From: a virus
IMG/VR virus record: IMGVR_UViG_3300037246_000489
Location: 1-25,345 of that record
Reading direction: 5' to 3' (one strand)
DNA: 25,345 nucleotides
Below the pieces are notes generated by a model, which did no database searches, had not been told where the DNA came from, and saw only the letters and a list, made by a program, of their open reading frames with translations. Positions 1,551 through 16,248 of the stretch are shown piece by piece (the first letter of the stretch is position 1; each line of letters opens with the position of its first letter). A program made the translations under genes and the position numbers.

Positions 1551-1578
1551 TTGACTTATCCTACTGTTCGAGTATAGT
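1551..1578 (+). promoter_or_regulatory. Sigma70-like promoter, TTGACT-16-TATAGT
   Basis: The -35 box is TTGACT (1551-1556), the spacer is 16 bases, and the -10 box is TATAGT (1573-1578). The expected transcription start, six to seven bases past the -10, falls at 1584-1585. That is on or next to the A of an ATG. It is the clearest housekeeping-type promoter in the window, placed straight after a terminator. Confidence 0.75.
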
Positions 1579-1583
1579 AGAAC

Positions 1584-1986: not shown

Positions 1987-2000
1987 CGTTCACGTGAAGG
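1987..2000 (+). promoter_or_regulatory. Palindrome copy 1: cgTTCACGTGAAgg
   Basis: An exact TTCACGTGAA lies at 1989-1998, four bases after the stop of the preceding gene. It matches the 14-base consensus CCTTCACGTGAAGG at 13 of 14 positions. It heads the region leading to the winged-helix gene at 2219. The sequence before it (TCTGAACG) is at best a weak -10. Confidence 0.75.
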
Positions 2001-2015
2001 AAGGCGGGTTGTGGT

Positions 2016-2222
2016 GTGCTAGGATCATCAGCAAAGTTGACACATAAGACTTACAAAGCCTTCCGAAGTTTCCAACTCTTAGTGACGAGCGCAGCGAGTC
2101 GTTTTCCGTCGCGCAGCAGGGAAACATGGCGTTCCATTGACCCATATGTAGCAGATATGTCTTATCTGTCAAGGAAGCGTCGCTCCTTCACTGATTACCT
2201 AACCAGCGAGGGGGATTCATGA
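2016..2222 (+). CDS. Doubtful small ORF between the palindrome and the winged-helix gene
   Basis: This is a possible 68-residue product starting at GTG 2016. AAGGAAGG and GGCGGG lie upstream, but at loose spacing. Its stop overlaps the next ATG as ATGA, the coupling style used by real genes here. Against it, the product is rich in Ser and Arg (for example SRFPSRSRETW), unlike the acidic proteins around it, and no domain is seen. The same 233-base gap also contains TTGACC, an inverted repeat and possible promoter sequence, so it may instead be an untranslated control region. I list it because nothing else explains the gap from 1986 to 2218. Confidence 0.3.
   Translation: MLGSSAKLTHKTYKAFRSFQLLVTSAASRFPSRSRETWRSIDPYVADMSYLSRKRRSFTDYLTSEGDS
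2137..2168 (+). promoter_or_regulatory. Possible promoter and operator upstream of the winged-helix gene
   Basis: A perfect inverted repeat CAGATA-TGTCT-TATCTG spans 2152-2168. Its right half overlaps a possible -10 (TTATCT, 2162-2167), which lies 19 bases after TTGACC (2137-2142). A repeat across a promoter 50 bases ahead of a DNA-binding protein gene would suit autoregulation. The 19-base spacer is longer than ideal, so the promoter call is weak. Confidence 0.35.
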
Positions 2223-2470
2223 GTTCCATACCTAGGAACACCAAATTCCATGTCCTCACTGCCGTGAAGGAACACTGGAGTTCCAACAGATTCGGCCCCA
2301 CTGTTCAGGAGATCAAGGACAGGGTTGGTTTGGCTTCTCGCTCTACTGTGCAGTTCCACATCAATGATCTTCTCGATGATGGATATCTGTCTCACCGTGA
2401 AAGAAAACGCAGAACTCACAAGGTCACCAAGAAGGGTGACCAGCTCATCTCCATACTGACGGAGGACTAA
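2219..2470 (+). CDS. LexA-type winged-helix DNA-binding protein (DNA-binding domain only)
   Basis: This is an 83-residue protein. The start ATG 2219 is preceded by GAGGGGG. The layout follows the LexA N-terminal domain: a first helix 'TKFHVLTAVKEHW' (residues 8-20), then 'GPTVQEIKDRVGL' (residues 26-38), a recognition helix 'SRSTVQFHINDLLDDGYL' (residues 40-57), and a basic wing 'HRERKRRTHKVTKKG'. LexA's C-terminal protease domain is absent, so it should not self-cleave. It is probably a small transcription regulator. It sits behind palindrome copy 1 and an inverted repeat, and either could be its operator. A replication or packaging DNA-binding role cannot be excluded. The next gene overlaps its stop by one base and has GGAGGA just upstream. 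Confidence 0.8.
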   Translation: MSSIPRNTKFHVLTAVKEHWSSNRFGPTVQEIKDRVGLASRSTVQFHINDLLDDGYLSHRERKRRTHKVTKKGDQLISILTED

Positions 2471-2751
2471 TGAAACTTCAAACCAAAGCATCCAGTGGTC
2501 AGCAGTTCGTTGCCCAGCAAAACATTCCCGCCGAAAGTGCCTTCTCTGACTCGAACGTGATATTGGCTGCGTTCATAGAGGCGCTCGAATCACTTCTGAT
2601 TTTGTGCGACACACCGACTGACTCTGAGACTATCCTCACAAGCATGTATCAGAACTACAGCACTCTTCACCAAATGAGAGACCAGTTCAAAGAAGATATG
2701 CTGCGTGCTGACGTGATGTTGGAAGCAATATCTGTGAAATTGTCGCTATGA
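2470..2751 (+). CDS. Small phage protein of unknown function
   Basis: This is a 93-residue protein. The start ATG 2470 shares a base with the previous stop (TAATG) and has GGAGGA at 2461-2466, an excellent ribosome site. Residues 28-50 form a hydrophobic helix (SNVILAAFIEALESLLILC), and residues 60-93 form a second amphipathic helix ending 'MLEAISVKLSL'. No motif, signal peptide or clear membrane segment is seen. Tight coupling to the winged-helix gene suggests co-expression and perhaps a partner role, but there is no direct evidence. Confidence 0.75.
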   Translation: MKLQTKASSGQQFVAQQNIPAESAFSDSNVILAAFIEALESLLILCDTPTDSETILTSMYQNYSTLHQMRDQFKEDMLRADVMLEAISVKLSL

Positions 2752-2761
2752 GGGAGCCTGA

Positions 2762-3460
2762 TTGATATACGCCGTCATGATCGTCGGTCCCGGAGAGGCC
2801 GAAAGATATCTAGAGCCTGTCGTGGAAAGAGTTCTGCGATGGGCTGATGGTCTTCACATTGCCTTGGAGCCAGATTCATACGAAGAAGAGAAGGTGCTGG
2901 GTGGTATCGACTCCATGGGGTATCTACGTGTGTCTGCAGACGAGAATGACGGTATGGCGAAGACTGACGCATGGACCGATGCTGTTAATGTGTTTCGTCC
3001 CTCTGATGATGATCTCATGGCGTTCGTGAAGCCAACAGAAGTGATTCTTGATCCAGACGCAGTACGAATGGCTGCTAAAGAGCATCCAAACCTAGCGCTT
3101 AAGTGCAGGCTGTGCCACATGTGGGATGAGGATCACATTCGTATAGATGGTTCGTGGGAACCCAAGGACGAGACTGTGTTCGTGCCGTTCAAACGCGGCG
3201 GCTCCTATCCGGACTACAGGCTGAGGGCAGGGAGACTCCCTACCTATCATTTCAATTTCCAGACTCATGGAGTGCCCATGAGCTACATGCTTGACTACGA
3301 CATGATGTCTTTTGATGACAAGTTGGCGAAATGGGACTGGTTCGAACGTGTCGGTGGGTCTGATTTCTTTTCGATAGATCACATCACATCCATAAAGCGT
3401 ACGCCCACACTCCGTACATGGAAGAAGGGTGGTGTGCTGAATGTCGGACAGACCTTCTGA
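2762..3460 (+). CDS. Glycosyltransferase-like protein (GT2 / GT-A style)
   Basis: This is a 232-residue protein starting at TTG 2762, five bases after GAGGGAG; the next in-frame ATG is six codons in ('MIYAVMIVGPGEAERYLEPV'). The N-terminal strand and helix 'ERYLEPVVERVLRWADGLHIAL' match the start of GT2-like enzymes that handle sugar nucleotides. A central 'KPTEVILDPDAVRMAAKEHP' (residues about 89-108) stands where such enzymes have their acidic metal-binding loop. Then come 'CRLCHMWDEDHIRIDG' and a C-terminal 'RLPTYHFNFQTHGVP' followed by a helix. A clear DxD is not seen, so activity is uncertain. Phage glycosyltransferases can modify DNA, virion proteins or host surface. The placement just before the terminase and head genes favours virion modification, which is inference. 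It overlaps the next gene by 20 bases. Confidence 0.62.
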   Translation: MIYAVMIVGPGEAERYLEPVVERVLRWADGLHIALEPDSYEEEKVLGGIDSMGYLRVSADENDGMAKTDAWTDAVNVFRPSDDDLMAFVKPTEVILDPDAVRMAAKEHPNLALKCRLCHMWDEDHIRIDGSWEPKDETVFVPFKRGGSYPDYRLRAGRLPTYHFNFQTHGVPMSYMLDYDMMSFDDKLAKWDWFERVGGSDFFSIDHITSIKRTPTLRTWKKGGVLNVGQTF

Positions 3461-4109
3461 TGAAGAAATACTTAGCATGCTTCAGGAGAAGGATGAAGCT
3501 GACGCCCTAGACGAGATTACAGTACAGGGTGCTTCAGGTACTGAATTCCAAGTGCTCATTTCTGAAGAAGCAGTGTGGTTTGACGAGTCGCTTAAACGCT
3601 ATAATGAGCAGTACAACTTTGACAACATAGCTGATTTGCAAGACCTTGACCGACTGCTTTCCATGGAGTTACTTTCGTATCGCTATGCAAACTGGATGAT
3701 ACGAGAGACTGATTACGAAGGTTCGCAGTATGACGATAAGGCTGTGCGAGATACGAAAGATCGTATAGATAAGCAGATACTGCAGCTCAAAGCTCACCTT
3801 GGTATTGGTAGGAAGAACCGCGTAGAATCTGAGCAGCAGTCTGTGTCTGAATATATGGCCGAGCTTCTCAAGCGTGCAGGCCAGTTTGGTGTGCATCGTG
3901 ACACACAGAACGCCGAGATACTCAACTGGTTCATGGAGCTTCGCACGAAGATAGGGCTACACGATCGTTCAGACGATGAGGAACGTACGCATAACAAAGT
4001 GCATATTGATCAGATAATCGAATGGGTACGAGACGAGCTACTTCCTGCGGTAGACGAGATAGATGGTCACTTCAGAGACAATCAGAAGTACTGGATCAAG
4101 GACCTCTGA
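3441..4109 (+). CDS. Probable terminase small subunit
   Basis: This is a 222-residue, acidic, mostly helical protein encoded directly before the large terminase, with stop and start overlapping as TGATG. The start ATG 3441 has GAAGGGTGG upstream. The N-terminal 40 residues are acidic. The middle has 'NIADLQDLDRLLSMELLSYRYANWM' (residues 53-77, quoted across a helix), then a long helix 'KDRIDKQILQLKAHLGIGRK' that may be a coiled coil. The C-terminal part includes 'HIDQIIEWVRDELLPAVDEID'. Small terminase subunits recognise phage DNA and hand it to the large subunit at the portal. The call rests on position, size and helical character, as no diagnostic helix-turn-helix is obvious. A regulator or packaging accessory protein is the alternative. 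Confidence 0.62.
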   Translation: MSDRPSDEEILSMLQEKDEADALDEITVQGASGTEFQVLISEEAVWFDESLKRYNEQYNFDNIADLQDLDRLLSMELLSYRYANWMIRETDYEGSQYDDKAVRDTKDRIDKQILQLKAHLGIGRKNRVESEQQSVSEYMAELLKRAGQFGVHRDTQNAEILNWFMELRTKIGLHDRSDDEERTHNKVHIDQIIEWVRDELLPAVDEIDGHFRDNQKYWIKDL

Positions 4110-5704
4110 TGGCGATAACACCGAAAGAGAAACCGCTTACTGAGGAGGAGATGTATCTCATCTCTCTCATTCAGGACAACGCTGGTATCGACTTGGCCGA
4201 GTTGTTGTGGGAAGACCCCATGGCTTCCAACAAAGAGCAGATTTTCAGGTGCTGGGATTTTCAGTACAAATGGTGGCGTGACGACAGCACGCAGGTGATA
4301 GACCAGTGTGCGCGAGCTATTGGCAAGACCGCTTCAATCATAGCCAGAGCGTGGGTCTTCCCTATCCAGCATCCCGGCGCAGAGATGGTTGTCACCGCAC
4401 CAGAAGCCGTCCACCTGCAGCCTTTGACCTCACGCATAGAGGACAGGATCAAATCGACACGTCTTACCCGTGAGCTTCTACCCGGAGGTGTGGGGAGAGG
4501 CTTTAAGCACAGACCGTTCCAAGTCGACTTCATGAACGGTGCGAAGATACTTGGCCGCATACCACAGCGAGACGGAAAGGGAGTGAAGGGACTCCACCCA
4601 TTGAGATTGGAGATGGATGAAGCACAAGACTTCCCCACCGCAGGCTGGATCGAGCTTGTCGAGACCCTCAAGCATGGTGACGAGGGCGCACAGTGGCGTG
4701 CCCACGGGGTTTCCAGAGGAGTACACGACGAGTTCTACCGTCACAGCCAACCGGGCTCTGGGTGGTCGGTACACAGGGTCACGGGCATGTCCCGGCCCAA
4801 TTGGGACGATGAGGAACGCACCAACAAGATCGAAGCCTACGGATCGCGTGACTCCCCTGACTACAAGAGGAACATCCTAGGTCTTCACGGTGACGCAACG
4901 AATCCGCTGTTTGTTCTACACCGGCTCATGGCTTGTGTCGACGACAACCTCGCGTCCGAGTACAACGATGATTGGTATTATGTCGTGCGCCTGAGTGACG
5001 AGATGATGTTGGATGGATCGACCGTAGAACACCACATTGATTTCCCCGGATCACACAAGAAGTGGACTGAGACGTGGGTCGGTATGGACGTGGGGCTTAC
5101 ATCTCACCCATCAGAGTTGCTCATTTTCGGTGAGGAGAAGATGCCGAAAGTGTCAGAAACTGGTCTCCGACTTCTGACACGTTTGAATCTGCAGCGTATT
5201 TCGGCAGCCGACCAGCGCCGTGTCGTTCAGATGATATTCGACTTCTACAACCCAAGGCGTTTCGCAATGGATCGTGGTGGACTTGGCTTACCTGTCTATC
5301 AGGACCTGCAAGCCGAGATGCCAGATCGTCGCAACAGAATGGTGGGATACACCGCTGACGAGAAGATCGTAGTGGGGTGGGACGATCACGAGACAACAGA
5401 GGATTCGAAGGATTTCGAGATCAGGGCAAGGGTCAAGGAGTACGGATACGACATGTTGCGTCAGTACGTTGACACCAAGAGGCTGATTCTTCCTTGGGAT
5501 CAGGAACTTCTTGGTGAGTGGCAGGGTTCCACGTGGTATCGGGAACGCTCAGAAACGAATCCATATGGCAAGAAAGCCTTCAACCGTGGGTCGTTCCACT
5601 CTTTGGATGCTGGCGCTATGATGATTGTTGGCAAAGAACAGATGGTATTGGACGCAATGGTCAAGATGAAGAAACCAGAACCAGTAGACATAGTCTTCGC
5701 ATGA
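4109..5704 (+). CDS. terL: Terminase large subunit (ATPase and nuclease)
   Basis: This is a 531-residue motor protein that pumps DNA into the prohead and cuts it. ATG 4109 (TGATG overlap with the upstream stop) is preferred over an in-frame ATG at 4022 that would overlap the upstream gene by 88 bases. The ATPase half shows a Walker A-like 'ARAIGKT' (G72-K73-T74) and a Walker B 'LEMDEAQ' (D170, E171). The nuclease half has the three acidic positions of the RNase H-like fold: 'GMDVG' (D327), 'FAMDRGG' (D388) and 'SLDAGA' (D500). Order, spacing and total length are normal for an intact TerL. The next gene overlaps as ATGA. Confidence 0.96.
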   Translation: MAITPKEKPLTEEEMYLISLIQDNAGIDLAELLWEDPMASNKEQIFRCWDFQYKWWRDDSTQVIDQCARAIGKTASIIARAWVFPIQHPGAEMVVTAPEAVHLQPLTSRIEDRIKSTRLTRELLPGGVGRGFKHRPFQVDFMNGAKILGRIPQRDGKGVKGLHPLRLEMDEAQDFPTAGWIELVETLKHGDEGAQWRAHGVSRGVHDEFYRHSQPGSGWSVHRVTGMSRPNWDDEERTNKIEAYGSRDSPDYKRNILGLHGDATNPLFVLHRLMACVDDNLASEYNDDWYYVVRLSDEMMLDGSTVEHHIDFPGSHKKWTETWVGMDVGLTSHPSELLIFGEEKMPKVSETGLRLLTRLNLQRISAADQRRVVQMIFDFYNPRRFAMDRGGLGLPVYQDLQAEMPDRRNRMVGYTADEKIVVGWDDHETTEDSKDFEIRARVKEYGYDMLRQYVDTKRLILPWDQELLGEWQGSTWYRERSETNPYGKKAFNRGSFHSLDAGAMMIVGKEQMVLDAMVKMKKPEPVDIVFA

Positions 5705-5883
5705 GTGAATTCCGATGTGCGAATTGTAATGAAGTGTTTCTCAAAGGTGGTTCTGACGAGGCAGCCGAGAACCGGTGGGTGGCAGAGTTCCCTCTGGAGT
5801 CCAGAGAAGACAGGATTATCATCTGTAACGATTGCCACAGAAAGCTAATGCTCTTCAGAAACACTAGCTTGCACCTTCCGTGA
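5701..5883 (+). CDS. Small zinc-ribbon protein
   Basis: This is a 60-residue protein whose ATG overlaps the TerL stop (ATGA). The metal site is C6-x2-C9 near the N-terminus and C42-x2-C45-H46 near the C-terminus, which is the pattern of a zinc ribbon or a trimmed HNH-like knuckle. The catalytic residues of an HNH nuclease are not visible in so short a chain. Between the pairs lies an acidic loop with 'NRWVAEFPLESRED'. Small zinc proteins next to terminases may bind DNA or the packaging motor, and in some phages an HNH protein near the terminase is needed for packaging. That role here is only suggested by position. Confidence 0.8.
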   Translation: MSEFRCANCNEVFLKGGSDEAAENRWVAEFPLESREDRIIICNDCHRKLMLFRNTSLHLP

Positions 5884-5895
5884 GTAAGGACGTGC

Positions 5896-5925
5896 TAAGC
5901 TCCTTTTCATGAAGCTTCACGTGAC
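5896..5925 (+). promoter_or_regulatory. Extended -10 and palindrome copy 2 at the start of the pre-portal gene
   Basis: TGC-TAAGCT (5893-5901) fits an extended -10 box, and its predicted start point is at or beside ATG 5909. The variant palindrome gcTTCACGTGACgg has its core at 5916-5925 (nine of ten bases of TTCACGTGAA) and lies inside the first codons of that gene. The gap from 5884 to 5908 has no ribosome site at normal distance, since AAGGA at 5886-5890 is 18 bases away. Confidence 0.45.
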
Positions 5926-6262
5926 GGATGCTACCGATAGCTCGTTTAAGGCCGGAAAAGGCGCAGTTACCGTTAACGCATTTGATGGAATGAACCTCTA
6001 CGAAGAAGTGGAGGCAATGATTCACACTATTCAGAGCGTGATGGACGCCCAACCTGATGTCATCATGACTACATGTATGGCACTGATGGCTCGATGTACA
6101 GAGATATGGATACAGCTCCTGCATGTCGAGAAGACCGAACGCAAGGCTAAGGCGTTCAGAACGATGCAGCTTCAGAAAATCATGGATCTGATCGACTTCG
6201 AATTCAAGGGCGCATCACGCCTTATCGAAGTGGCACGTCAAGAAGTGGAGCTGTCCAGATGA
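5909..6262 (+). CDS. Small helical protein upstream of portal, unknown function
   Basis: This is a 117-residue protein. ATG 5909 lacks a well-spaced ribosome site and may be read from a leaderless transcript. A later in-frame start (for example GTG 5921 or ATG at codon 28) is possible. After a short polar N-terminus, residues 30-117 are almost all helix, including 'VEAMIHTIQSVMDAQPDVIM', 'ALMARCTEIWIQLLHVEKTERK' (quoted in part) and 'SRLIEVARQEVELSR'. It could form a helical bundle or dimer. The stop overlaps the portal start as ATGA, so it is translated with the portal. No family is recognised. A packaging or portal-associated role is context only. Confidence 0.72.
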   Translation: MKLHVTDATDSSFKAGKGAVTVNAFDGMNLYEEVEAMIHTIQSVMDAQPDVIMTTCMALMARCTEIWIQLLHVEKTERKAKAFRTMQLQKIMDLIDFEFKGASRLIEVARQEVELSR

Positions 6263-7842
6263 GCGAGAATGAGAACAACTTCGAATCTGAAATCAAAGAC
6301 GGAGCGATCATTGTCTCCGAAGTTCCACCTGAAGACATTCAAGCCTCAATGGCTGAAGGGTTGACATCGGGAGTGGATCCTCGCGTTACACGTGCGCTTG
6401 CTTCGTGGGCTGAGGACGCTCAGGGTAGGGGCAGGGCAACTCGTGGGATTTTCCAACGAGACAAGTATGTTACACCCGGCAAGGTGTTTTCACAGATGGC
6501 TGTCTCATATGACTCGCTTGATGATGATGTGGTAGGCAACGTTGCAGACCTATCTGAGTCGATGGCGTTCCAGAAAGTCACGTTCGAGACCGAGAACGAC
6601 AAGGATCAGGAGAACGTCTGGCATCAGATAGGTCGTGATCTAGACCTTGACGGCTTTGTGCGGACTATGTGGCGTGAGCTGTACGTAACGTCGCAATGCT
6701 ACATGGTGAGATGGTGGGGCCAGAAGACCTACAAGGTTGAGGGGAAGCGCGACAAGCGTCAGGCTCGTAAGGAATACAACATCACTGTTCCTGTGGCTCT
6801 GGGTTTTCTCGACCCCACGAGAGTCGTTCCTGTAAACCTTGACCCCTTCGGGAACGCCAGCCTTGCATGGATCATGAATTCTGATGATGAGATTGAGGGC
6901 GCTGGTGACGATGAACTTGTAGGGGCGCTGTTCCTTAGTAGGTACACCCCTTCGGCAGAAGAATCACAGAAGCTTGAGAAGGAAGGCATCGAAGTCGACA
7001 AGCTGATGCTCCTCAACCCCCAGTATGTGTGGCAGCACACTCTCACAAAGTCACCGTTCGAGAGATGGTCACGTGTTCGGATGAAATCCATCTTCCCGTT
7101 GCTCGACCTCAAGCACCAGTTGAGAGAGATGGATCGTGCATTCCTCCTTGGTGGAATCAACTTCATTGTCCTCGTGACTCGTGGAACAGATCAGATTCCA
7201 ACCACCAAATCAGAGGTTGACAAGACAGCCACACAGGTGAGGTCGCAAAGCCGCTCGCCTGTCATTGTGTCTGATCACCGCATCAAAATCGAAATCATCA
7301 CACCGGACATAACGCACGTTCTCAACGAAAACAAGTGGGATGTGTTAGATCAGCGCCTGCTGATGAGGCTGTGGGGTATGTTCACCATGCCGAATGACAC
7401 AGGCAACCGTGAGACCTCTATGACCATGGGACGAGTTATTGCCCGTGGGCTGGCGAGCAGACGTCATATGATGAGACGGTCAATTGAAGACCATGTACTG
7501 AGGCCGACGTATGAGCACCCAGCAAACGCGAAAGAGTTCTCCGCTATTACTGCGATTGAGTTCGCTCCACGCAGAATGGAGCTGGAATTCGATCCGTCAG
7601 TTATCAGCATGCTCCAGTCTCTCAGGGATCGTGGCGACATGTCACGCGAAACCCTCCTCACTGAGTTCGGGTTCGATCAGACACTTGAAGCTTCGAGACG
7701 TGAGTACGAGGACGAGCGTTGGGAAGACGTGTTCACACCAGTCGATGTCCCATTCGATTCACCCAACAAAGGCAACCCAGACAAGTCCGGACGTAAGGGT
7801 GGTCAACCAACTGGACCAACCAAGAAGAAGGAAGATGAATGA
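6259..7842 (+). CDS. Portal protein
   Basis: This is a 527-residue protein at the expected place between the terminase and the protease/scaffold/capsid genes. The start overlaps the previous stop (ATGA). The order is an acidic N-terminal arm (residues 1-60), an alpha/beta wing region with 'LYVTSQCYMVRWWG' and 'PVALGFLDPTRVVPVNLDPFG', a helical stretch 'RMKSIFPLLDLKHQLREMDR' leading into the clip and crown region, and a polar C-terminal tail 'KGNPDKSGRKGGQPTGPTKK'. Portals form a dodecameric ring at one capsid vertex through which DNA enters and leaves and to which the tail attaches. Length and composition fit. The call rests on context plus a remembered actinophage portal pattern. Confidence 0.88.
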   Translation: MSENENNFESEIKDGAIIVSEVPPEDIQASMAEGLTSGVDPRVTRALASWAEDAQGRGRATRGIFQRDKYVTPGKVFSQMAVSYDSLDDDVVGNVADLSESMAFQKVTFETENDKDQENVWHQIGRDLDLDGFVRTMWRELYVTSQCYMVRWWGQKTYKVEGKRDKRQARKEYNITVPVALGFLDPTRVVPVNLDPFGNASLAWIMNSDDEIEGAGDDELVGALFLSRYTPSAEESQKLEKEGIEVDKLMLLNPQYVWQHTLTKSPFERWSRVRMKSIFPLLDLKHQLREMDRAFLLGGINFIVLVTRGTDQIPTTKSEVDKTATQVRSQSRSPVIVSDHRIKIEIITPDITHVLNENKWDVLDQRLLMRLWGMFTMPNDTGNRETSMTMGRVIARGLASRRHMMRRSIEDHVLRPTYEHPANAKEFSAITAIEFAPRRMELEFDPSVISMLQSLRDRGDMSRETLLTEFGFDQTLEASRREYEDERWEDVFTPVDVPFDSPNKGNPDKSGRKGGQPTGPTKKKEDE

Positions 7843-8582: not shown

Positions 8583-8616
8583 CTCGGACTGCACCCACAA
8601 AGCGAGCATGTTGGTC

Positions 8617-8635
8617 TATAGTTTCACGTGAAGGA
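8617..8635 (+). promoter_or_regulatory. TATAGT -10 box fused to palindrome copy 3
   Basis: TATAGT (8617-8622) is followed with no gap by TTCACGTGAA (8623-8632) and then GGA. The predicted transcription start would fall inside the palindrome. The right half supplies AAGGA (8631-8635), a ribosome site seven bases before ATG 8643. No good -35 is present near 8594. Confidence 0.65.
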
Positions 8636-8642
8636 TGTGCAA

Positions 8643-9260
8643 ATGAGCATGACTGACAAGCAAAAGCATGATCTTCTTATGGAGATGCGTCCCGACGGGT
8701 CGCACCATGACGAAGCTATCTGCATGCATTGCACCAGTAAAGCCTCTGAGGAGGGAATTGTGGCAGACGACGCGAAAGCGATCTTCACGCAGGAGCAGCA
8801 CGAGCAGCTCCTAGCTACTGCCGTCGAGAATGCAAAGTCGGAAGCTACCGCTTCCGCCGATGCTGAAGTCCTCAGCCTAAACGAAAAGCTCGAAGCTGCC
8901 TCGACGGTTGCTGAAGACGCTGCTCGGACGATTGCAGAGCTGGAAACAGCCGCTACTGATCGTGACGAAGCGGAACGTCTGGCAGTCCTCGAAGGTGAGC
9001 GCGTCGAGGCCGTTAAGGCTGTGGTCGAGTTCTCTGACGAGCAGGTCGAGACAAGAAAAGAAGCCTGGACGGAAATGTCTGAGGAAAACTTCGAAGCCTA
9101 TCTGGAAGACCTCCAGTTTAGTGCTAAGGCTACGGCCAAAGAGAAGCTCCCCACGTCAAGTTTCGACGGGACACGAGTGACCGCAGACGCAGAAGGGTCG
9201 GAGGAATTTGTCATTAATGGCTTCTTCTCCAGTGACCTTGCTGGCGCCTCGCAGTCCTAA
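8643..9260 (+). CDS. Capsid scaffolding protein
   Basis: This is a 205-residue, strongly acidic, Ala/Glu-rich helical protein between the protease and the capsid genes. I choose ATG 8643 because AAGGA lies seven bases upstream; a GTG at 8628 lies inside the palindrome itself. Residues 45-165 form a long predicted coiled coil (heptad-like 'LSLNEKLEAASTVAEDAART', 'ERLAVLEGERVEAVKAVVEF'). This matches scaffolds that guide capsid protein assembly and are removed by the protease. Unusually, the N-terminus has H21-H22-x4-C27-x2-C30, a possible zinc site, and the protease next door also carries a Cys/His cluster. The C-terminus 'EEFVINGFFSSDLAG' could be the capsid-binding end. No enzyme motif is seen. 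Confidence 0.78.
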   Translation: MSMTDKQKHDLLMEMRPDGSHHDEAICMHCTSKASEEGIVADDAKAIFTQEQHEQLLATAVENAKSEATASADAEVLSLNEKLEAASTVAEDAARTIAELETAATDRDEAERLAVLEGERVEAVKAVVEFSDEQVETRKEAWTEMSEENFEAYLEDLQFSAKATAKEKLPTSSFDGTRVTADAEGSEEFVINGFFSSDLAGASQS

Positions 9261-9275
9261 GGAGGAAACCAAAAG

Positions 9276-9860
9276 ATGGGATCTAGCACGACAACCCGTA
9301 ACTTCGGGATGCGTCGCTTCACCAACTTGGTTCGTGAGGGAAGGTTCCGCGCTCCAGCGGCTACTGAACTTCGCCTTGGCACTCTCGTCCAGATTGACCC
9401 GGCAGATACTGACCGGGTCGAGCAGGCCGATGCAAGCGCTGATGGCGTTGGTGTTGGTGGCTCAAAGGACGTGAGACAAGACGTTTGCGGTATCCTGTGG
9501 TATGAGCATGACTCTCAGACCTTTAACGCTCCCCCTTGGGGTGGCGCTGCTGGTCTGCTTCCACAGGACCTAGACACTGCACCTGCAAACCGCATGGTGC
9601 AGGTTCTTCACGGTCCAGGCGTCAAGGTGTGGCTCCGCAATACCCTGATCGACGAGACTGAGCCGGGTCTGAATTACGATAGCGACAGAGCTGCTGTCAC
9701 AATGGTGGACAGCATTGGTTCTGTGGCGGTCAACGACCTTCTGGGTTGGGACCCGACCGGCTATTGGGCGGTAACGACAGACGCAACAGAAGCAGTACTT
9801 CGAGTAACTGCTCTCAACACGAACGGCGATCTTTCACTAGACGCCGAGTTCATCATATAG
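9276..9860 (+). CDS. Probable capsid decoration / head stabilising protein
   Basis: This is a 194-residue, beta-rich protein encoded between scaffold and major capsid. The ribosome site AAGGAGG (9259-9265) overlaps the scaffold stop codon, ten bases before ATG 9276. The N-terminus 'TTTRNFGMRRFTNLVREGRF' is basic. The body has 'ELRLGTLVQIDPADTDRVE', 'GILWYEHDSQTFN' and 'QVLHGPGVKVWLRNT', a beta-barrel style seen in decoration proteins that sit on the capsid surface (compare the DUF2190 and lambda gpD position in the gene order). The strong ribosome site suits a high copy number. The identity is inferred from position and fold style. A minor head protein is the alternative. Confidence 0.62.
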   Translation: MGSSTTTRNFGMRRFTNLVREGRFRAPAATELRLGTLVQIDPADTDRVEQADASADGVGVGGSKDVRQDVCGILWYEHDSQTFNAPPWGGAAGLLPQDLDTAPANRMVQVLHGPGVKVWLRNTLIDETEPGLNYDSDRAAVTMVDSIGSVAVNDLLGWDPTGYWAVTTDATEAVLRVTALNTNGDLSLDAEFII

Positions 9861-9872
9861 GAGGTGGGATAA

Positions 9873-10814
9873 ATGTCTAAAGCAGCATTCAAAAAGCTAA
9901 TCGACAACTATGGCCGCTCTCCTGAGCAGCGTGCTGAGGAACTCGAACTGATCGAAAAGGTCAACGCTGAAGCAAAGGCTCAGTGGCACAATCCCGCATG
10001 GAGGCGTGCAATGGCCGCGGTGCTCACAGAGAGCATCCTTGAAGGGTTCACATTTGAGACCTTCTACGATCAGATCATTCAGGTAGACCGCGTTGGTTTC
10101 GACGATCGTGTCATCCTTGAAGAGGAAACTGGCCTACAGGTCTTCTTCATCGCAAAGGGTGGACACATCGAGGCGAGCGCCATGGTCAGCGAGTCGATGG
10201 AGATTCCAAGAGACACTCTTGGTTTCCACGTCTACGAGTTCGAGGACAAGATGGAGTCCAACTTCGCCAAGAACGCGGCGACACTCCGGAACCTCGCAGT
10301 GAAGCGTCTCGACTGGGGCGTTAACAAGCAGATCAAGGCACTCATCGAAGCTGGTATCGACTCCGGTTCTCCGTACTATGTTACGGGTACCAATGTTGAT
10401 CAGTCTGCACTTAATCAGGCGATCCGTGAGGTTCGTGATGAGTCGCAGTCCGGCGTAGTGACGCTCTATGGTCGTTCCACGATGGTGGATCAGATCATGG
10501 ACTTCCCCGGCTTCGCTGATGAAGCTCTGGAAGAAATCCGCAAGCGTGGACGCCTTGGTGTCTACCGTGGATCGTCCGTTGTGCAGGTCAAGAACTGGAA
10601 GGACGAGCAAGGCGATTCGTTCATTCCAGCGAATGAGATGTACGTGGTCGGTGACGATGCTGGACTGTTCGCCATGTATGGTGGATTGAAGTCCAAAGAG
10701 TACGTCGAAGACGACAACTGGTACTGGCACTACATTGGTAGGCAGGACTTTGGTGGAGTCCTCCACCGTCCCGAAAGGGCACGTCGGTTCGTCGATACGA
10801 GTATCACGCCATAA
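9873..10814 (+). CDS. Major capsid protein (HK97 fold expected)
   Basis: This is a 313-residue protein with a near-perfect ribosome site (TAGGAGGTG at 9858-9866) before ATG 9873, as expected for the most abundant virion protein. The N-terminal 60 residues are a charged helix (RAEELELIEKVNAEAKAQW) that could serve as a delta domain or scaffold contact. Then come an extended loop region with 'FYDQIIQVDRVGFDDRVIL' and 'GGHIEASAMVSESMEIPRDT', a spine helix 'NAATLRNLAVKRLDWGVNKQ' and an A-domain end 'NWYWHYIGRQDFGGVLHRPE'. The encoded order (protease, scaffold, decoration candidate, capsid, then a terminator) supports the call strongly. Family membership in HK97 is assumed from size and context. 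Confidence 0.9.
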   Translation: MSKAAFKKLIDNYGRSPEQRAEELELIEKVNAEAKAQWHNPAWRRAMAAVLTESILEGFTFETFYDQIIQVDRVGFDDRVILEEETGLQVFFIAKGGHIEASAMVSESMEIPRDTLGFHVYEFEDKMESNFAKNAATLRNLAVKRLDWGVNKQIKALIEAGIDSGSPYYVTGTNVDQSALNQAIREVRDESQSGVVTLYGRSTMVDQIMDFPGFADEALEEIRKRGRLGVYRGSSVVQVKNWKDEQGDSFIPANEMYVVGDDAGLFAMYGGLKSKEYVEDDNWYWHYIGRQDFGGVLHRPERARRFVDTSITP

Positions 10815-10832
10815 GTTTCGAACCACGAAACT
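10814..10832 (+). repeat. Inverted repeat at the end of the capsid gene
   Basis: AGTTTCG (10814-10820) and CGAAACT (10826-10832) are perfect seven-base arms around AACCA, beginning on the last base of the capsid stop codon. It is eight bases before the main terminator, so it may protect the capsid mRNA 3' end or aid termination. Confidence 0.55.
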
Positions 10833-10839
10833 AAGACAA

Positions 10840-10874
10840 AAGGGAGTCCCGCTTCGGCGGGGCTCTCTTGTTTC
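10840..10874 (+). terminator. Strong intrinsic terminator after the major capsid gene
   Basis: The arms 10841-10852 and 10857-10868 pair over 12 positions (two of them G-T) around a TTCG tetraloop, extended by A10840-T10869 and followed by GTTTC. It ends the head operon. From here to 10958 I see no convincing gene, only TTGCAC- and TATGGC-like words without proper spacing. Confidence 0.88.
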
Positions 10875-10958
10875 TGAAACATTCCCTGTTTCTTGCCTGT
10901 TTTGCACCGTTTGTTCGAGAGGTATGGCTTATGGTGAGGAGTCCGAGTAAGGAAGCTT

Positions 10959-11006
10959 ATGGACAGATGTACAGGAGATTGTTGCTGTAATTGTGGTGGA
11001 AAATGA
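10959..11006 (+). CDS. Cys-rich micro-ORF (15 residues)
   Basis: The product MDRCTGDCCCNCGGK has five cysteines in 15 residues. AAGGA (10949-10953) lies five bases before ATG 10959, a proper ribosome site. The stop overlaps the next ATG as ATGA, the coupling used by real genes throughout this genome. It is too short for family recognition. It could be a leader peptide whose translation controls the next ORF, or the first part of a single zinc-binding product if ribosomes slip by -1 on the A run at the junction. Expression is unproven. Confidence 0.4.
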   Translation: MDRCTGDCCCNCGGK

Positions 11007-11104
11007 GGGATGATAAGTGCTCTCATTGCGGTAACACACGAATGATTCCGGCTGGTACGTGTTTCATCTGCACGGTTTGTGGTGAGACCACCGGATGTTC
11101 GTGA
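11003..11104 (+). CDS. Tiny zinc-ribbon protein resembling the NrdJ C-terminal tail
   Basis: This is a 33-residue ORF. C6-x2-C9-G10, then G18-T-C20-x2-C23-x2-C26-G27 and an ending 'ETTGCS' give seven cysteines in a dense ribbon. Class II (B12-dependent) ribonucleotide reductases end in a very similar segment: a CxxCG, a short loop, then 'G-x-C-Y-x-C-x-x-C-G-x-T-x-GCS' at the C-terminus. This ORF matches that tail and has nothing else. It is coupled (ATGA) to the upstream Cys-rich micro-ORF, and its own ribosome site is poor (GGTGGA only two bases away), so it would depend on that coupling. It is flanked by the capsid terminator and a promoter-like box. It could be a free-standing redox or zinc peptide, or a relic. 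Confidence 0.6.
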   Translation: MRDDKCSHCGNTRMIPAGTCFICTVCGETTGCS

Positions 11105-11110
11105 TATAGT
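11102..11110 (+). promoter_or_regulatory. Extended -10 box TGA-TATAGT
   Basis: TGATATAGT overlaps the stop codon of the zinc-ribbon ORF and fits TGn-TATAnT. The predicted start is near 11117, just ahead of the hairpin at 11128-11145. No good -35 is seen, which an extended -10 does not strictly need. It may drive the connector operon through the hairpin or give a short leader RNA. Confidence 0.5.
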
Positions 11111-11127
11111 TCGGAAATGACACGATG

Positions 11128-11148
11128 GCCTCGCTTCTGCGGGGCTTT
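11128..11148 (+). terminator. Hairpin, terminator or attenuator
   Basis: GCCTCGC (11128-11134) pairs with GCGGGGC (11139-11145) around TTCT, with one G-T pair, and TTT follows. The T run is short, so termination may be partial. It sits between an extended -10 box and palindrome copy 4, which invites an attenuation role. Confidence 0.6.
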
Positions 11149-11152
11149 CGTG

Positions 11153-11172
11153 TATCATCCTTCACGTGAAGG
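11153..11172 (+). promoter_or_regulatory. TATCAT box and palindrome copy 4 (perfect 14-base form)
   Basis: CCTTCACGTGAAGG (11159-11172) is a perfect 14-base palindrome and equals the consensus of the six copies. TATCAT (11153-11158), a fair -10 box, abuts it. The connector operon begins 28 bases further at ATG 11200. Confidence 0.72.
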
Positions 11173-11199
11173 CCAGATTGGTCTAGGAAAGGAACAGGA

Positions 11200-11778
11200 A
11201 TGCCAGACGAGACACTCGAAGTTTGGAAGAACACAACCCACGGGATGCGGTGGTGTAAGTACCACGACCGCAGCGGCAACGAGAATACGAGAATTGTCAA
11301 TTCTAAGCGTACGTTCTCCATCACACCGCTTGACCGTCAACTGAATCAGGATATTGCCGCCACCCCTCAGCTTGACTTGTTCCGCAATGGAACGTTCGAG
11401 TTGGTTAGGGAGGCAGGAGACACGAACCTAGAAGAAATTCAGTCGTCCGATTCGCTCACAGAGAATGAAGTCATTGCTCTGTCCGTGGAGACATTGGGCA
11501 GTCCCGAAAAAGTGGACTACTACCTGAGAGATATCAGGAGCCCCATTGCCCTTAATAGGGTTTTGGATCAGTACGTAGCTGACGACGTGGACAAATCTGC
11601 GATCGAATATGTGAAGGCAAAGATCGCCAAGTTTGACCCAAGCGTGAGAGCCGCTGTCGTCCACGAGCAGGTAACAGAGCCAGTGGAAGAGCCAGAGGTC
11701 AAGACTCCTCGTGCGGGTATCCCGGAAGTGGAGACACCCGAGTATGTCCAGACCCGACCTGAGAAGATTGGTGGCTAG
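11200..11778 (+). CDS. Conserved-type protein after the capsid gene, unknown function
   Basis: This is a 192-residue protein. The start ATG 11200 follows a purine-rich ribosome region (AGGAAAGGAACAGG). Residues 5-70 look like a beta domain: 'LEVWKNTTHGMRWCKYHD', 'SKRTFSITPLDRQLNQ' and 'LDLFRNGTFELVRE'. Residues 90-150 are helical (LTENEVIALSVETLG, IEYVKAKIAKFDPSVRAAVV). The C-terminal 35 residues are a Pro/Glu-rich linker (VEEPEVKTPRAGIPEVETPE) that is probably disordered. Similar small proteins often follow the capsid gene in actinophages, where they are annotated as head-tail or structural proteins. I cannot name the function. It begins the connector operon under palindrome copy 4. Confidence 0.75.
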   Translation: MPDETLEVWKNTTHGMRWCKYHDRSGNENTRIVNSKRTFSITPLDRQLNQDIAATPQLDLFRNGTFELVREAGDTNLEEIQSSDSLTENEVIALSVETLGSPEKVDYYLRDIRSPIALNRVLDQYVADDVDKSAIEYVKAKIAKFDPSVRAAVVHEQVTEPVEEPEVKTPRAGIPEVETPEYVQTRPEKIGG

Positions 11779-11780
11779 TC

Positions 11781-12251
11781 ATGGCAGAGAAGCTCGGTGG
11801 CATTGAGTCGATAGCGGTCATACCGACTGCTGATCTTCGTGACATCCTACGTAGGACGATGGTGATGGGTATTGCGGAGAACGAACAGCCCACGTTCTAT
11901 TTTGAGGGTGAGCAGACATTCGACGATGCTGACTTGGAGGGCAGTCCTTGGAACTGGACAGACACTCCTTCTGTAGATACTGCCAAGGGGCCCTTACAGA
12001 TATTGTGTGCTGTCGAGTTCTTCGCTCCGCTAGGTAGGCAGGGCGCGTTCTCTACCGAGGTCGGTGAGTTCAATCCGAACACCGTGGTTCTCACCATGTT
12101 CGAAGACGAATTCAGCGAAGCGTATGGATTCACCTACCTGACGATTGGACCATCAGATCAGCGGTACTACTTCAGGTTCTACAAACCTGCCGTGGGGTTG
12201 AATGACCTGACGGTATACCAATTGCATTGCGTAGCGACGGGAACTGAATAA
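11781..12251 (+). CDS. Probable head-tail connector (head closure) protein
   Basis: This is a 156-residue protein starting at ATG 11781, two bases after the previous stop. Residues 10-40 hold a helix and strands. The second half is beta-rich: 'NTVVLTMFEDEFSEAYGFTY', 'LTIGPSDQRYYFRFYKPAVG' and 'LNDLTVYQLHCVATG'. The end pattern (a strand, an 'x-G-x-x-Y' strand, then 'gLndltVYqlHc') is that of head-closure or stopper proteins that seal the portal and dock the tail. It overlaps the next gene by one base (TAATG). The call rests on position in the classic connector cluster and the shape of the C-terminal strands. Confidence 0.6.
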   Translation: MAEKLGGIESIAVIPTADLRDILRRTMVMGIAENEQPTFYFEGEQTFDDADLEGSPWNWTDTPSVDTAKGPLQILCAVEFFAPLGRQGAFSTEVGEFNPNTVVLTMFEDEFSEAYGFTYLTIGPSDQRYYFRFYKPAVGLNDLTVYQLHCVATGTE

Positions 12252-12745
12252 TGCCACTTGAAGGCGGTCTTCGTGACAGGATGATGCTTGAGTCCGTGGT
12301 CAACGACATCGTTGCTGATCTCACTACTCGTGGGTGGTTCAACAACACGAACAAGCAGTACGCACCGATCACAGTGGTGGATGAATACCCAGAAGACGAT
12401 GATGCTGTTGAGTTGAACACGATTGCCTTTTCTATGGGTGACACAACGTCACTTGCCTTGGAGTTGGGGTCAAAAGCAGAGCGCCTTCATACATCAATCT
12501 TTGTCGATTTCTTCGCAGAGAATGATGGTCTTGGTAGGCACGTCGTTGGTGACGTTGCTGCTCATGTGAACGATGTCGGCCAGTTCACTGTGTATGACTA
12601 TGAGCAGGTCTCGCCTACTGCAGAGTTTGTGGTGCAGGTCATGGAGAGTACTTTGGAAAGAAGCAAACCCACAAGAGCTACGAATGCGTGGCAGAAGCAT
12701 TGGCATTCTGTGGCGTGGGTTGTGGTAGAGGAAAGGTTCAACTGA
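12251..12745 (+). CDS. Probable tail terminator / tail completion protein
   Basis: This is a 164-residue protein, coupled to both neighbours (TAATG before, TGATG after). It starts with a helix 'DRMMLESVVNDIVADLTTRGWF'. Beta strands follow, 'SLALELGSKAERLHTSIFVDFFAENDG' (residues about 60-86, quoted as key part), then a helix 'LGRHVVGDVAAHVNDVG' and a final strand set 'HWHSVAWVVVEERFN'. This is the helix-strand-helix-strand order of tail terminator proteins such as lambda gpU-like and SPP1 gp17-like families, which form a hexameric ring capping the tail tube. Position between connector and major tail protein agrees. Confidence 0.6.
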   Translation: MPLEGGLRDRMMLESVVNDIVADLTTRGWFNNTNKQYAPITVVDEYPEDDDAVELNTIAFSMGDTTSLALELGSKAERLHTSIFVDFFAENDGLGRHVVGDVAAHVNDVGQFTVYDYEQVSPTAEFVVQVMESTLERSKPTRATNAWQKHWHSVAWVVVEERFN

Positions 12746-13017
12746 TGAAAAGAGAGAATTCATTCTCGGCAAAGCTTGTGGCTACGCGAGGCAACAGATG
12801 CTCGGCGTCCATTCTGGGGTGGCTTGAATCGAACATCTACAAGGCGTATCCAGATATATCCACGAAGGATCAGAAGGCTATTCGTCAGGTCATCCTTGAC
12901 AATGTGAACCAGTTCAAGGATCTCGCTATGGACATAGTGAAGTCTGAGGTGGATGTGCTCAACGATGAGTATGTCAAGAAGATTGACGAAATTCATAGGT
13001 ACGTGCGTAATGGTTAG
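12745..13017 (+). CDS. Small protein of the connector cluster, unknown function
   Basis: This is a 90-residue protein from ATG 12745, which overlaps the previous stop as TGATG. GAGGAAAGG lies about eight bases upstream. A longer in-frame start at 12688 would overlap the upstream gene and is not favoured. The protein is basic at the N-terminus (MKRENSFSAKLVATRGNR) and helical afterwards, including 'DQKAIRQVILDNVNQFKDLA' and 'LNDEYVKKIDEIHRYVRNG'. No motif is recognised. It overlaps the next gene by eight bases. A structural or assembly role is likely from context only. Confidence 0.7.
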   Translation: MKRENSFSAKLVATRGNRCSASILGWLESNIYKAYPDISTKDQKAIRQVILDNVNQFKDLAMDIVKSEVDVLNDEYVKKIDEIHRYVRNG

Positions 13018-13729
13018 TGCTGCTTCACTGAGGAACCTTGGAGGGGGGCGTGGAGGTTCTGCTCGTCTCGAAGTGGATGAGGATGGCTTCCAGCGCATGG
13101 TGACTGCGATTCAGGCGCTGCCTGTCAACCTCAAGAAGAACACACAGCAATCCGCTGTTGCAATGATCGGTGTTGTGGGCAGGGCTGCTGCAAGCAACTT
13201 TCACTCCTCCATTAGGCGACCCGGCGAGCAGGGTCGTGGCGCAGAGCGTGGCAGACGGACCGGCGATTTCACCTTTGGCGATAAAGACTCTGGCAATACT
13301 TTTCATGGCAATGTATTCGAGATCAAGGAGGGTGTGTTTGGATTCGGCTATCCCAATGTGTCTACAGCGGATTCCAAGACAAAATATGTTTGGCGTTCTC
13401 TTGAATTTGGACTTTCAGGTACACAAAATGCTCCTGAAACTATATTGGGTGATGCCTCACTCTTTCCGCGAGGAACACATATCTTACCGAAGCGATTCTA
13501 TTTCACTACCGGCTCACCGTCTAATGCGGTCCTGGTTATCCCCAAGAAGTTTGCAAGAAAAGGCCCGGAGGGTCAGACGATACTGAAGGGTGGCAAGGCG
13601 AATCCAGGTGCGGGTTTCGAGGGGAAGCACTTCATAGAGCGAGCGTGGCTGTCTACATTGGAACGTCTGCCCCAAGTGTGGAAACGTGACATAGTTGCCA
13701 CTGTCAAGACGTTTGGTAGATCAGCGTAA
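13010..13729 (+). CDS. Minor tail / neck protein, HK97 gp10-like (tentative)
   Basis: This is a 239-residue protein starting at ATG 13010 inside the end of the previous gene; an in-frame ATG at 12953 would overlap 65 bases and is not favoured. A Gly-rich N-terminus precedes a helix 'DGFQRMVTAIQALPVNLKKN' and 'SAVAMIGVVGRAAASNF'. A glycine/arginine loop follows (RRPGEQGRGAERGRRTG). Beta strands occupy the middle, and the end is 'FIERAWLSTLERLPQVWKRD'. A lone helix pair at the start with 'G..FIerAw' near the C-terminus is the plan of HK97 gp10-type tail-completion proteins, though this one is longer than the usual 110-150 residues. It ends the connector operon. No terminator is seen after it. 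Confidence 0.55.
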   Translation: MVSAASLRNLGGGRGGSARLEVDEDGFQRMVTAIQALPVNLKKNTQQSAVAMIGVVGRAAASNFHSSIRRPGEQGRGAERGRRTGDFTFGDKDSGNTFHGNVFEIKEGVFGFGYPNVSTADSKTKYVWRSLEFGLSGTQNAPETILGDASLFPRGTHILPKRFYFTTGSPSNAVLVIPKKFARKGPEGQTILKGGKANPGAGFEGKHFIERAWLSTLERLPQVWKRDIVATVKTFGRSA

Positions 13730-13747
13730 ACTGTCCGTGAGACACAA

Positions 13748-13761
13748 CCTTCACGTGATAG
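13748..13761 (+). promoter_or_regulatory. Palindrome copy 5: ccTTCACGTGATag
   Basis: The core at 13750-13759 matches nine of ten bases of TTCACGTGAA. It lies in the 80-base gap before the major tail gene, 50 bases ahead of the start. GATAGT (13757-13762) overlaps its right half and may be a -10 box, but no -35 is clear. Confidence 0.6.
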
Positions 13762-13809
13762 TCTGTGCTCGACCCAATAAGGGAATACAACTAGGAGAGG
13801 TGAGCCTTT

Positions 13810-14979
13810 ATGGCAATTAAGGGCGGACAGATCCTCCACGTTACTGGTGGATTCGTCATAGACCGCATTCAGACAGGCGGCGTGACCGGGATCAACGTGA
13901 ATGAAGACCGTCTGGAAGAATTGGGTAATACCATAGCAATTGGTACCATACGCGATATTCCTGACCTCACGTTCGAAATCGAATCTTTTGACGTAACCAC
14001 AGAACTGGAATCAATACTCACGGGTGGCATCAACGATGAAGCCGACGCGACATTGTTTGATCTCGCATTGAATGTACCCATCAACGTCATTTCGCCGTTC
14101 AAGGCTTCAGGTGCCCAGACGGTTGACGGTGGTGTGGTTATCCCCTACCTGTCACTTGAGTCGATGAGCTATGCTTTCTCGCTCGGTGATCCAGCAACGC
14201 AGACAGCCACCATGCGTGGAGACTCGGTCTTTTATGTTCCTGGCTCTGTGTATGAGGAAACCTTCGATGGTGATACCACTACCGGACCATTCAACTTCAC
14301 TGACGGCCCTGCGTTCAAGTCCACCATCGGTGGGACTGAGTATTTCGCGCTGTCTGTCACGGTTGATGGCATCAGACAGAAGAACATCATCGACTACACG
14401 GACACTGCTACTGGCGTTACGTTCGAAGCAGGTAGCGAACCTGCTACAGGTACTGACAACATTGTCCTTACCTACGGTTCTGCTGTTGCATCGACGTATG
14501 CGCAGGGTGTACACAACGTCGCTGATCCGATCGGTATTCGTGGACGTGACACGTACATCTCCGTTGATGCTGGCAACAACTGGCTTGGTGTGCAGTCCGG
14601 CAACATTGACTGGTCTGTGTCCCTTGAACGAGACGAGGAGTTCGGTAACTCCTTCATTGTTGCTCAGGACTTTGACATTCCGGATGTTTCCGGTTCGGTC
14701 TCGATGAAGGCTGCTGATGTGAACGCACTGTTCGCACAGATTCAGCTTGTGACTGGATTGACTGGCACTGACATTGCGAATGCTACGGAGGACCCACCCG
14801 AGCTTGACGTTGAGATCATCACCGTCGACTCTGCTGGTGCCACAACCAAGACTTGGATCGTTCCTGATGCCAAGTTCACGGTTCCGTCGCTGCAGGGCTC
14901 GGTTGGTTCTAAGCTTGAGACGGACTTTTCGTTTGTGTCAGCTACGGGCATTCTTGAGGTCTACAAGGCTGACGATTAG
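13810..14979 (+). CDS. Major tail protein (tail tube)
   Basis: This is a 389-residue, beta-rich protein with a strong purine ribosome region (AGGAGAGG at 13793-13800) before ATG 13810, fitting an abundant protein. It is encoded after the connectors and directly before the frameshifted chaperones. The N-terminal 'GGQILHVTGGFVIDRIQTGG' and the C-terminal 'SVGSKLETDFSFVSATGILE' strands frame the tube fold. 'IPDLTFEIESFDVTTELESI' near residue 50 is typical of tube subunits. The middle (residues about 150-230) holds an acidic, Thr/Gly-rich region (EETFDGDTTTGPFNFTDGPA) that may be an outward-facing insertion. The subunits stack as rings around the tape measure. Confidence 0.85.
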   Translation: MAIKGGQILHVTGGFVIDRIQTGGVTGINVNEDRLEELGNTIAIGTIRDIPDLTFEIESFDVTTELESILTGGINDEADATLFDLALNVPINVISPFKASGAQTVDGGVVIPYLSLESMSYAFSLGDPATQTATMRGDSVFYVPGSVYEETFDGDTTTGPFNFTDGPAFKSTIGGTEYFALSVTVDGIRQKNIIDYTDTATGVTFEAGSEPATGTDNIVLTYGSAVASTYAQGVHNVADPIGIRGRDTYISVDAGNNWLGVQSGNIDWSVSLERDEEFGNSFIVAQDFDIPDVSGSVSMKAADVNALFAQIQLVTGLTGTDIANATEDPPELDVEIITVDSAGATTKTWIVPDAKFTVPSLQGSVGSKLETDFSFVSATGILEVYKADD

Positions 14980-14999
14980 TCACTAGCTAAAAGCGCATG

Positions 15000-15034
15000 A
15001 GAAGGAGGGGTGCTGTGACACCTCTCCTTCTTTG
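15000..15034 (+). terminator. Intrinsic terminator after the major tail gene
   Basis: GAAGGAGGGGTG (15001-15012) pairs with CACCTCTCCTTC (15019-15030) over 12 positions (one G-T) around CTGTGA. A15000-T15031 adds a pair, and TT follows. It would raise the ratio of tail tube to chaperone transcripts. Confidence 0.82.
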
Positions 15035-15040
15035 TGTTAC

Positions 15041-15054
15041 CCTTCACGTGAACG
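15041..15054 (+). promoter_or_regulatory. Palindrome copy 6: ccTTCACGTGAAcg
   Basis: An exact TTCACGTGAA lies at 15043-15052, nine bases after the terminator T run and 15 bases before ATG 15068. The abutting TGTTACCC could be a poor -10. Its place right after a terminator repeats the layout at 11128-11172. Confidence 0.72.
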
Positions 15055-15067
15055 ACCGGGAGAATGA

Positions 15068-15925: not shown

Positions 15926-16248
15926 TTCGAGGCGTCAAGGGAATTGGAGGAGGCTTTTCAGCCTTCTGGGAAGGATCTGTAGAGGATTCACCATGGCCTA
16001 TCAGTATGGCCGTGAATCATGCACTCACGGTGATAAGCTGGCATGAGAACTTGCCAAAGGATGAACAACCACCCCGAAGCATATGGCATAGCGGGGATCT
16101 GGTTGATAAGTGGTTCAGGAACGTTGAGGACAAGAGGTCGGCTAAGTATGGCGATTCGGGCAAGTCGCGTTCTCGCTATGAGGATGCTGATGAATCACCT
16201 ACTGGTATGACGACTAATGAACTAGCGGAATCCTATAGGCCCAAGTAA
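15068..16248 (+). CDS. Tail assembly chaperone, -1 frameshift product (GT-like)
   Basis: This is the longer product, joined as 15068-15895 and 15895-16248, 393 residues in all. The -1 frame is open from 15886 to the stop at 16246-16248. After N276 it continues 'LAQSPQFLSLVRGVKGIGGG' and later 'WPISMAVNHALTVISWHENL', then a polar end. A separate start at ATG 16006 inside this stretch has no good ribosome site, which supports frameshifting over an independent gene. In lambda and most long-tailed phages the T extension binds the tail tube protein while the G part binds the tape measure. The stop overlaps the tape measure start (TAATG). Confidence 0.85.
15875..15947 (+). promoter_or_regulatory. 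Programmed -1 frameshift site with stimulatory elements
   Basis: The slippery heptamer A-AAA-AAC is at 15889-15895, in the right phase with the chaperone frame. GGGAG (15875-15879), nine bases upstream, resembles the internal ribosome-site stimulator of dnaX. Downstream, 15909-15917 can pair with 15939-15947 (nine pairs, two of them G-T), with an inner GCCT/AGGC helix at 15920-15933 that contains the zero-frame stop. Confidence 0.85.

Follow-up and report, generated by a model that had tools for sequence, protein, structure and literature searches.

Background

The c repressor of phage phiC31 binds conserved inverted repeats dispersed over an actinobacterial phage genome; these repeats appear to differ in sequence and length from the palindromes described here. 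In phage SPbeta, the SPBRE motif is repeated in intergenic promoter regions and bound by the master repressor MrpR, a protein found 24 years after the motif had been recognised by sequence (PMC10516654). The stoperators of cluster A mycobacteriophages are many dispersed sites, with lineage-distinct but related consensus sequences matched by repressor specificity (PMC6550527, PMC9283540), and the start-associated sequences (SAS) of cluster K are copies of a non-palindromic 13-mer (GGGATAGGAGCCC) that occupies the Shine-Dalgarno position, at 3–7 bp from the start codon, in genes of the non-structural half of the genome (PMC3203893). We analysed the IMG/VR-type viral record IMGVR_UViG_3300037246_000489, positions 1 to 25,345 (this whole stretch of 25,345 bases is hereafter the window), in which a palindromic dyad with the core TTCACGTGAA recurs at six gene junctions. 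These dyads are probable dispersed phage operators, a known kind consisting of a short motif repeated beyond chance outside genes, in a new variant that is unrelated in sequence and located on individual late operons. Judging from sequence, we consider it probable that they serve as operators for a dimeric sequence-specific DNA-binding protein and are built into the promoters of the late operons.

We do not assign the dyads to the SPBRE, stoperator, SAS or parS families. SPBRE has the nearest layout, a short intergenic promoter motif repeated across one phage genome, but both the sequence and the repressor differ, MrpR having a tyrosine-recombinase fold, a domain that was not found here. Furthermore, the described SPBRE promoters are not known to be those of structural operons, whereas the dyads occupy individual late operons. 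Stoperators are the nearest in terms of lineage-specific divergence (PMC6550527). However, they are asymmetric, mostly in a single orientation and mostly off promoters, whereas the sites in the window are palindromes next to −10-like boxes. SAS and ESAS resemble the dyads in being short repeats near starts that are kept at homologous genes in different subclusters, and the inverted-repeat consensus of ESAS varies by subcluster (PMC3203893), but the dyads differ from SAS in sequence, are palindromic, precede structural operons and may lie up to ~220 bp from the start. The likeness to stoperators and SAS drawn in the original prediction thus holds loosely, the sites being palindromic and promoter-bound.

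The six palindromes and the gaps between genes

The dyads of the window are the following:

1987–2000, + strand: dyad 1, CGTTCACGTGAAGG, at about −39 from the predicted start, preceding the winged-helix gene's leader
5904–5913, + strand: degenerate proximal dyad, TTTTCATGAA (relatives L032 and L086 have TTCACATGAA there)
5914–5927, + strand: dyad 2, GCTTCACGTGACGG, overlapping the start of gene 5909/5921–6262
8621–8634, + strand: dyad 3, GTTTCACGTGAAGG, preceding gene 8628/8643–9260 (scaffold-position gene)
11159–11172, + strand: dyad 4, the perfect CCTTCACGTGAAGG, preceding gene 11200–11778
13748–13761, + strand: dyad 5, CCTTCACGTGATAG, preceding gene 13810–14979 (tail-tube position)
15041–15054, + strand: dyad 6, CCTTCACGTGAACG, preceding gene 15068–15925

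As originally predicted, TTCACGTGAA is exact at 1989, 8623, 11161 and 15043 and has one end mismatch at 5916 (TTCACGTGAC) and 13750 (TTCACGTGAT), and the 14-base palindrome CCTTCACGTGAAGG is exact solely at 11159–11172; in each of the other five copies, 5 or 6 of the 7 positions of the 14-mer pair. The 8-mer TCACGTGA was found seven times, as claimed, six at dyad sites and the seventh at 18171, within the tape-measure gene; 0.8 occurrences were expected, and none of 100 dinucleotide shuffles of the window reached this count. TTCACGTGA occurs six times, the maximum among 400 first-order Markov simulations being two. The exact 14-mer had 54 matches in viral contigs, mostly single copies in unrelated contigs at about the level expected by chance, and its repetition at gene starts was confined, among the viral contigs searched, to this phage group.

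It had also been claimed that, after position 1985, each gap of more than 20 bases carries a site and tight junctions carry none. We found a site in all six true gaps (1986–2218, 5705–5920, 8583–8642, 10815–11199, 13730–13809 and 14980–15067) and in none of the 16 tight junctions (1/C(22,6) = 1.3e-5), and the claim stands with two corrections: 1986–2218 is a leader region rather than a short promoter gap, and the sites at 5914 and 8621 lie at the start-codon edge. For the gene that follows 8621, ATG 8643, which has a GAAGGA Shine-Dalgarno sequence, is a likelier start than GTG 8628. The sole apparent exception, 15926–16005, is not a true gap: the downstream frame is open from 15886 and is probably reached by a conserved −1 frameshift, making the stretch coding sequence. 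A slippery A-AAA-AAC sequence is present at 15889–15895 in the correct frame for such a shift, and the stretch AAAAAAC-TCGCTCAGTCT was found again in relatives. Genes 15068–15925 and 16006–16248, directly 5′ of the 1709-residue tape-measure gene, are therefore a probable tail assembly chaperone pair joined by −1 programmed frameshifting.

Conservation and divergence of the dyads in relatives

A search of phage records for near-identical DNA yielded no close match of the window to a named phage. A search with the capsid protein identified 28 viral contigs (46–89% identity). Gene order is strongly kept among the relatives, allowing a junction-by-junction comparison, in which genes were called by a simple script on partial genomes, half of most being missing. 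We distinguished clade 1 (L032 and L059–L064, with 80–89% capsid identity, and L086, placed by its terminase), clade 2 (L066 and L068–L074, 66–70%) and clade 3 (L065 and L067, 71–76%).

The motif was concentrated outside genes, and the close relatives of clade 1 retained TTCACGTGA at the same junctions as the window, two outcomes on which the original prediction had been made to depend. TTCACGTGA was essentially missing from clades 2 and 3, in which other TTC-N4-GAA dyads occupied these junctions. In an unbiased count, by clade, of all inverted half-sites in non-coding DNA, the top dyad was TCACGTGA in clade 1 (19 occurrences, 0.9 expected) and TTC-N4-GAA in both other clades, with 25 occurrences in clade 2, where 5.4 were expected, and 16 in clade 3, where the expectation was 3.9. 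No enrichment of TTC-N4-GAA was detected in the more distant capsid relatives examined. The table of orthologous junctions showed that, across clades, sites recur before the genes at 5909, 8628, 11200, 13810 and 15068, with almost none at the portal, 9276, capsid, 11781 and tape-measure junctions. Across clade 1, alignment of the junctions at 11159 and 13748 showed little conservation beyond the dyad and the adjacent bases.

The centre of the dyad is lineage-specific. It is ACGT in 24 of the 34 clade-1 sites and GTAC in 10 of 24 sites in clade 2 (variants GTAG, GTAT and GCAC), where the dyad is mostly TTCGTACGAA, and it takes mixed purine-N-N-pyrimidine forms in clade 3. The element that would be recognised throughout the group is TTC-N4-GAA, with shared outer half-sites and a centre particular to each lineage. 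With operator positions fixed and a centre that differs in three lineages, these phages offer a ready test of joint change in regulator and site specificity, and the dyads provide a regulatory signature marking operon starts in a group of unclassified, probably actinobacterial phages.

An actinobacterial host is suggested by a WhiB protein encoded in a clade-3 relative (L105:4136–4453); the WhiB family is actinobacterial, and TANNNT promoters whose −35 elements are weak would be in keeping with such a host. The genome-contig search for a host by capsid alignment gave no match. In L105, the WhiB gene is transcribed divergently from a gene whose start carries a TTCACATGAA dyad.

Predicted promoter boxes and a possible mechanism

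The boxes and terminator-like structures predicted near the dyads are the following:

2020–2025, + strand: predicted −10 box TAGGAT of the leader promoter, with TGC/TAC before it, conserved in three relatives
5896–5901, + strand: predicted −10 box TAAGCT, promoter of gene 5921–6262, shared with L059 and L032
8617–8622, + strand: predicted −10 box TATAGT, adjoining dyad 3
11133–11145, + strand: terminator-like hairpin directly upstream of dyad 4
11153–11158, + strand: predicted −10 box TATCAT, two bases 5′ of the dyad 4 core
13759–13764, + strand: predicted −10 box TAGTCT, downstream of the dyad 5 core
15000–15031, + strand: strong inverted repeat and then T-rich DNA, a terminator-like structure at the end of the preceding operon
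15038–15043, + strand: predicted −10 box TACCCT, its final T shared with dyad 6

Dyad 1, its spacing (30–31) and the TAGGAT box are the same in L059 and L086, and L181 has a like layout. The TATAGT box of dyad 3 is identical in five relatives and lies one base nearer the dyad in L064. In a set of 72 dyad sites from the window and its relatives, with boxes taken as matches to the TANNNT consensus, nearly all sites had a box nearby. It was at offset −5 in 25 sites, against ~4.5 expected (this value allows for the T that ends the box and also begins the dyad), at −8 in 12 sites and at −6 in seven.

We infer a separate sigma-70-type promoter for every late operon, in which the −10 box is TANNNT, often TG-extended, and no −35 element is evident; the sites at 11159 and 15041, at least, also follow a terminator-like hairpin. 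The dyad would cover the −10/start-site region at most sites, and otherwise nearby promoter DNA, and a bound dimer would block RNA polymerase, the operons being jointly held off or tuned. The binder would most likely be the phage's own LexA-like winged-helix protein (2219–2470), which would also control its own leader. In the usual picture of tailed phages, an activator or antiterminator switches on the late genes, which form one or a few long transcripts; the structural region of the window appears to consist of short operons that have a promoter and an operator apiece.

The candidate binding protein

Two features of the window are concerned here:

2026–2218, + strand: leader with a conserved two-hairpin RNA core (~2084–2126)
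2219–2470, + strand: 83-residue LexA-like winged-helix protein, candidate binder (PF01726, E = 1.7e-8)

The 2219–2470 product scored above the cut-off for the LexA N-terminal winged-helix domain, and its predicted model is a winged helix (pLDDT 83), for which the best fold matches were LexA, the AspA centromere protein and others, none below E 0.001. The C-terminal S24 self-cleaving domain of LexA is absent from this protein, the chain ending after the winged helix, and its score is far below the lexA equivalog cut-off. It is the only DNA-binding protein found in the region shared by the relatives, and each of the three clades has homologues among the relatives whose records extend over this region. 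A profile search, run without a positive control, found no homologue in outgroup records of up to 79 kb, and the outgroup records lacking a winged-helix match also lacked the dyad. Among the available records, the gene was confined to phages that bear the dyad, and its leader is preceded by a dyad in L059, L086, L181 and the window. A Pfam scan of ~100 non-structural proteins of the relatives identified no other repressor-like protein but a WhiB. The original prediction had named the 2219–2470 protein for binding assays; co-occurrence with the dyads makes its involvement plausible, as an association with the lineage and not as proof. More tentatively, and with some doubt, a solo LexA-like winged-helix protein without a cleavage domain might act as a phage-wide late-operon regulator on everted TTC-N4-GAA half-sites, with the specificity of its operators having changed together at five or more operons in each lineage, to give a natural series of co-evolved regulator–operator pairs across the group.

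Several points weigh against operators bound by this protein. It is small and lacks an obvious dimerisation domain, and the recognition helix varies little between clades although the centre of the dyad differs. The co-occurrence involves the whole lineage, and any other conserved gene there would match; another repressor may be encoded outside the partial genomes. The dyad sites at orthologous junctions are non-independent observations, and TANNNT is a weak consensus. Finally, the right flank (GAAGGA/GAACGA) is conserved asymmetrically, a feature that would not be expected of a purely symmetric operator.

Alternative explanations

The dyads could be operators bound by a temperate-phage immunity repressor or by a repressor from the host, the 2219 winged-helix protein being unrelated to them. 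Dispersed lineage-specific operators are typical of immunity systems, but the sites here are on late structural operons, and no tyrosine integrase was found in 14 records (the window and 13 relatives), a result that is not decisive as these records are incomplete. Two clade-2 relatives have tRNA genes (27 in one of them), which are more usual in virulent phages, although this is not decisive either. On balance, we consider a repressor of this type unlikely.

It seems quite improbable that the dyad is part of a core promoter and switches the late operons on through an RNA polymerase or sigma factor that the phage encodes or modifies. The clustering of most sites at a few offsets (−5, −6 and −8) from TANNNT, the absence of a recognisable −35 element and the asymmetry of the right flank would be consistent with such a role. 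However, the dyad is a symmetric element whose centre has drifted, unlike the −10 box. The position of the dyad relative to the box also varies: all six clade-1 tail-tube junctions have TANNCT at +9, and the −10 box is found at +12 in clade-2 terminase junctions, at −13 to −15 in two clade-2 junctions and at +30/31, downstream of the dyad, in the winged-helix leader. The dyad can be on either side of the −10 box, downstream or upstream, and both arrangements occur at the tail-tube junction when clades 1 and 3 are compared. Furthermore, a separate predicted promoter at 1550–1583, with a −35-like TTGACT and TATAGT, has no dyad of the TTC-N4-GAA class. The dyad is always on a predicted promoter, yet at a varying place, and therefore behaves as an operator. 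The original prediction had offered an operator or a promoter element co-regulating the late operons; the former is supported and the latter disfavoured, the position of the dyad relative to the −10 box not being fixed.

An element acting in RNA, as a 5′-terminal hairpin or a stem masking the Shine-Dalgarno sequence and controlling translation in the manner of SAS, is very unlikely. The right half of the dyad overlaps a plausible Shine-Dalgarno sequence (TTCACGTGAAGGATG) at several sites, but a separate one is located downstream at the 11159, 13748 and 15041 junctions, and a start ~7 bases past the −10 box would leave the left half outside the RNA at most sites, for which reasons a pure translation signal was rejected. 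In addition, the TTC/GAA outer stem of clades 2 and 3 amounts to three pairs, with a mostly unpaired centre.

The dyads share the 10-base core TTCACGTGAA with chromosomal parS, and dyad 3 (GTTTCACGTGAAGG) matches the left half of the Mycobacterium smegmatis parS, GTTTCACGTGAAAC (PMC7022226). parS-like centromeres recruiting the host ParB are nevertheless highly improbable, and were rejected: the right-hand outer bases are matched at no site, the core is replaced by TTCGTACGAA and others in relatives although parS is nearly invariant, the sites are tied to promoters, and the ParB_N domain (PF02195) was absent from the same 14 records in scans with working controls. No cognate ParB was found near the dyads in these records, a host ParB being a possible though improbable partner. 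The reading of the palindrome as a restriction site was also rejected.

Leader RNA and other features

The two-hairpin core of the leader shows compensatory changes at 4 of 14 pairs in four sequences (the window, L059, L086 and L181), three of which have the loop GTCGCGCAGCAG. It matched no Rfam family. The 16-base loop was found in 63 viral-contig stretches, and the flanking hairpin in none of those tested outside the known relatives.

A second dyad class, GTTC-N10-GAAC with an internal TANNNT box, is present in the window (1566–1583), L059, L086, L181 and G003. It is located directly before the start codons of the 1584 gene and, in clade 1, of the winged-helix gene, and the genes behind these dyads are possibly leaderless. 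The 27 tRNA genes of the clade-2 relative form an array at L109:12215–17051. The gap after the capsid gene contains, at 11003–11104, a 33-residue zinc-ribbon-like open reading frame (CSHCGN...CTVCGETTGCS), which is kept in one relative (G004, near 6516).

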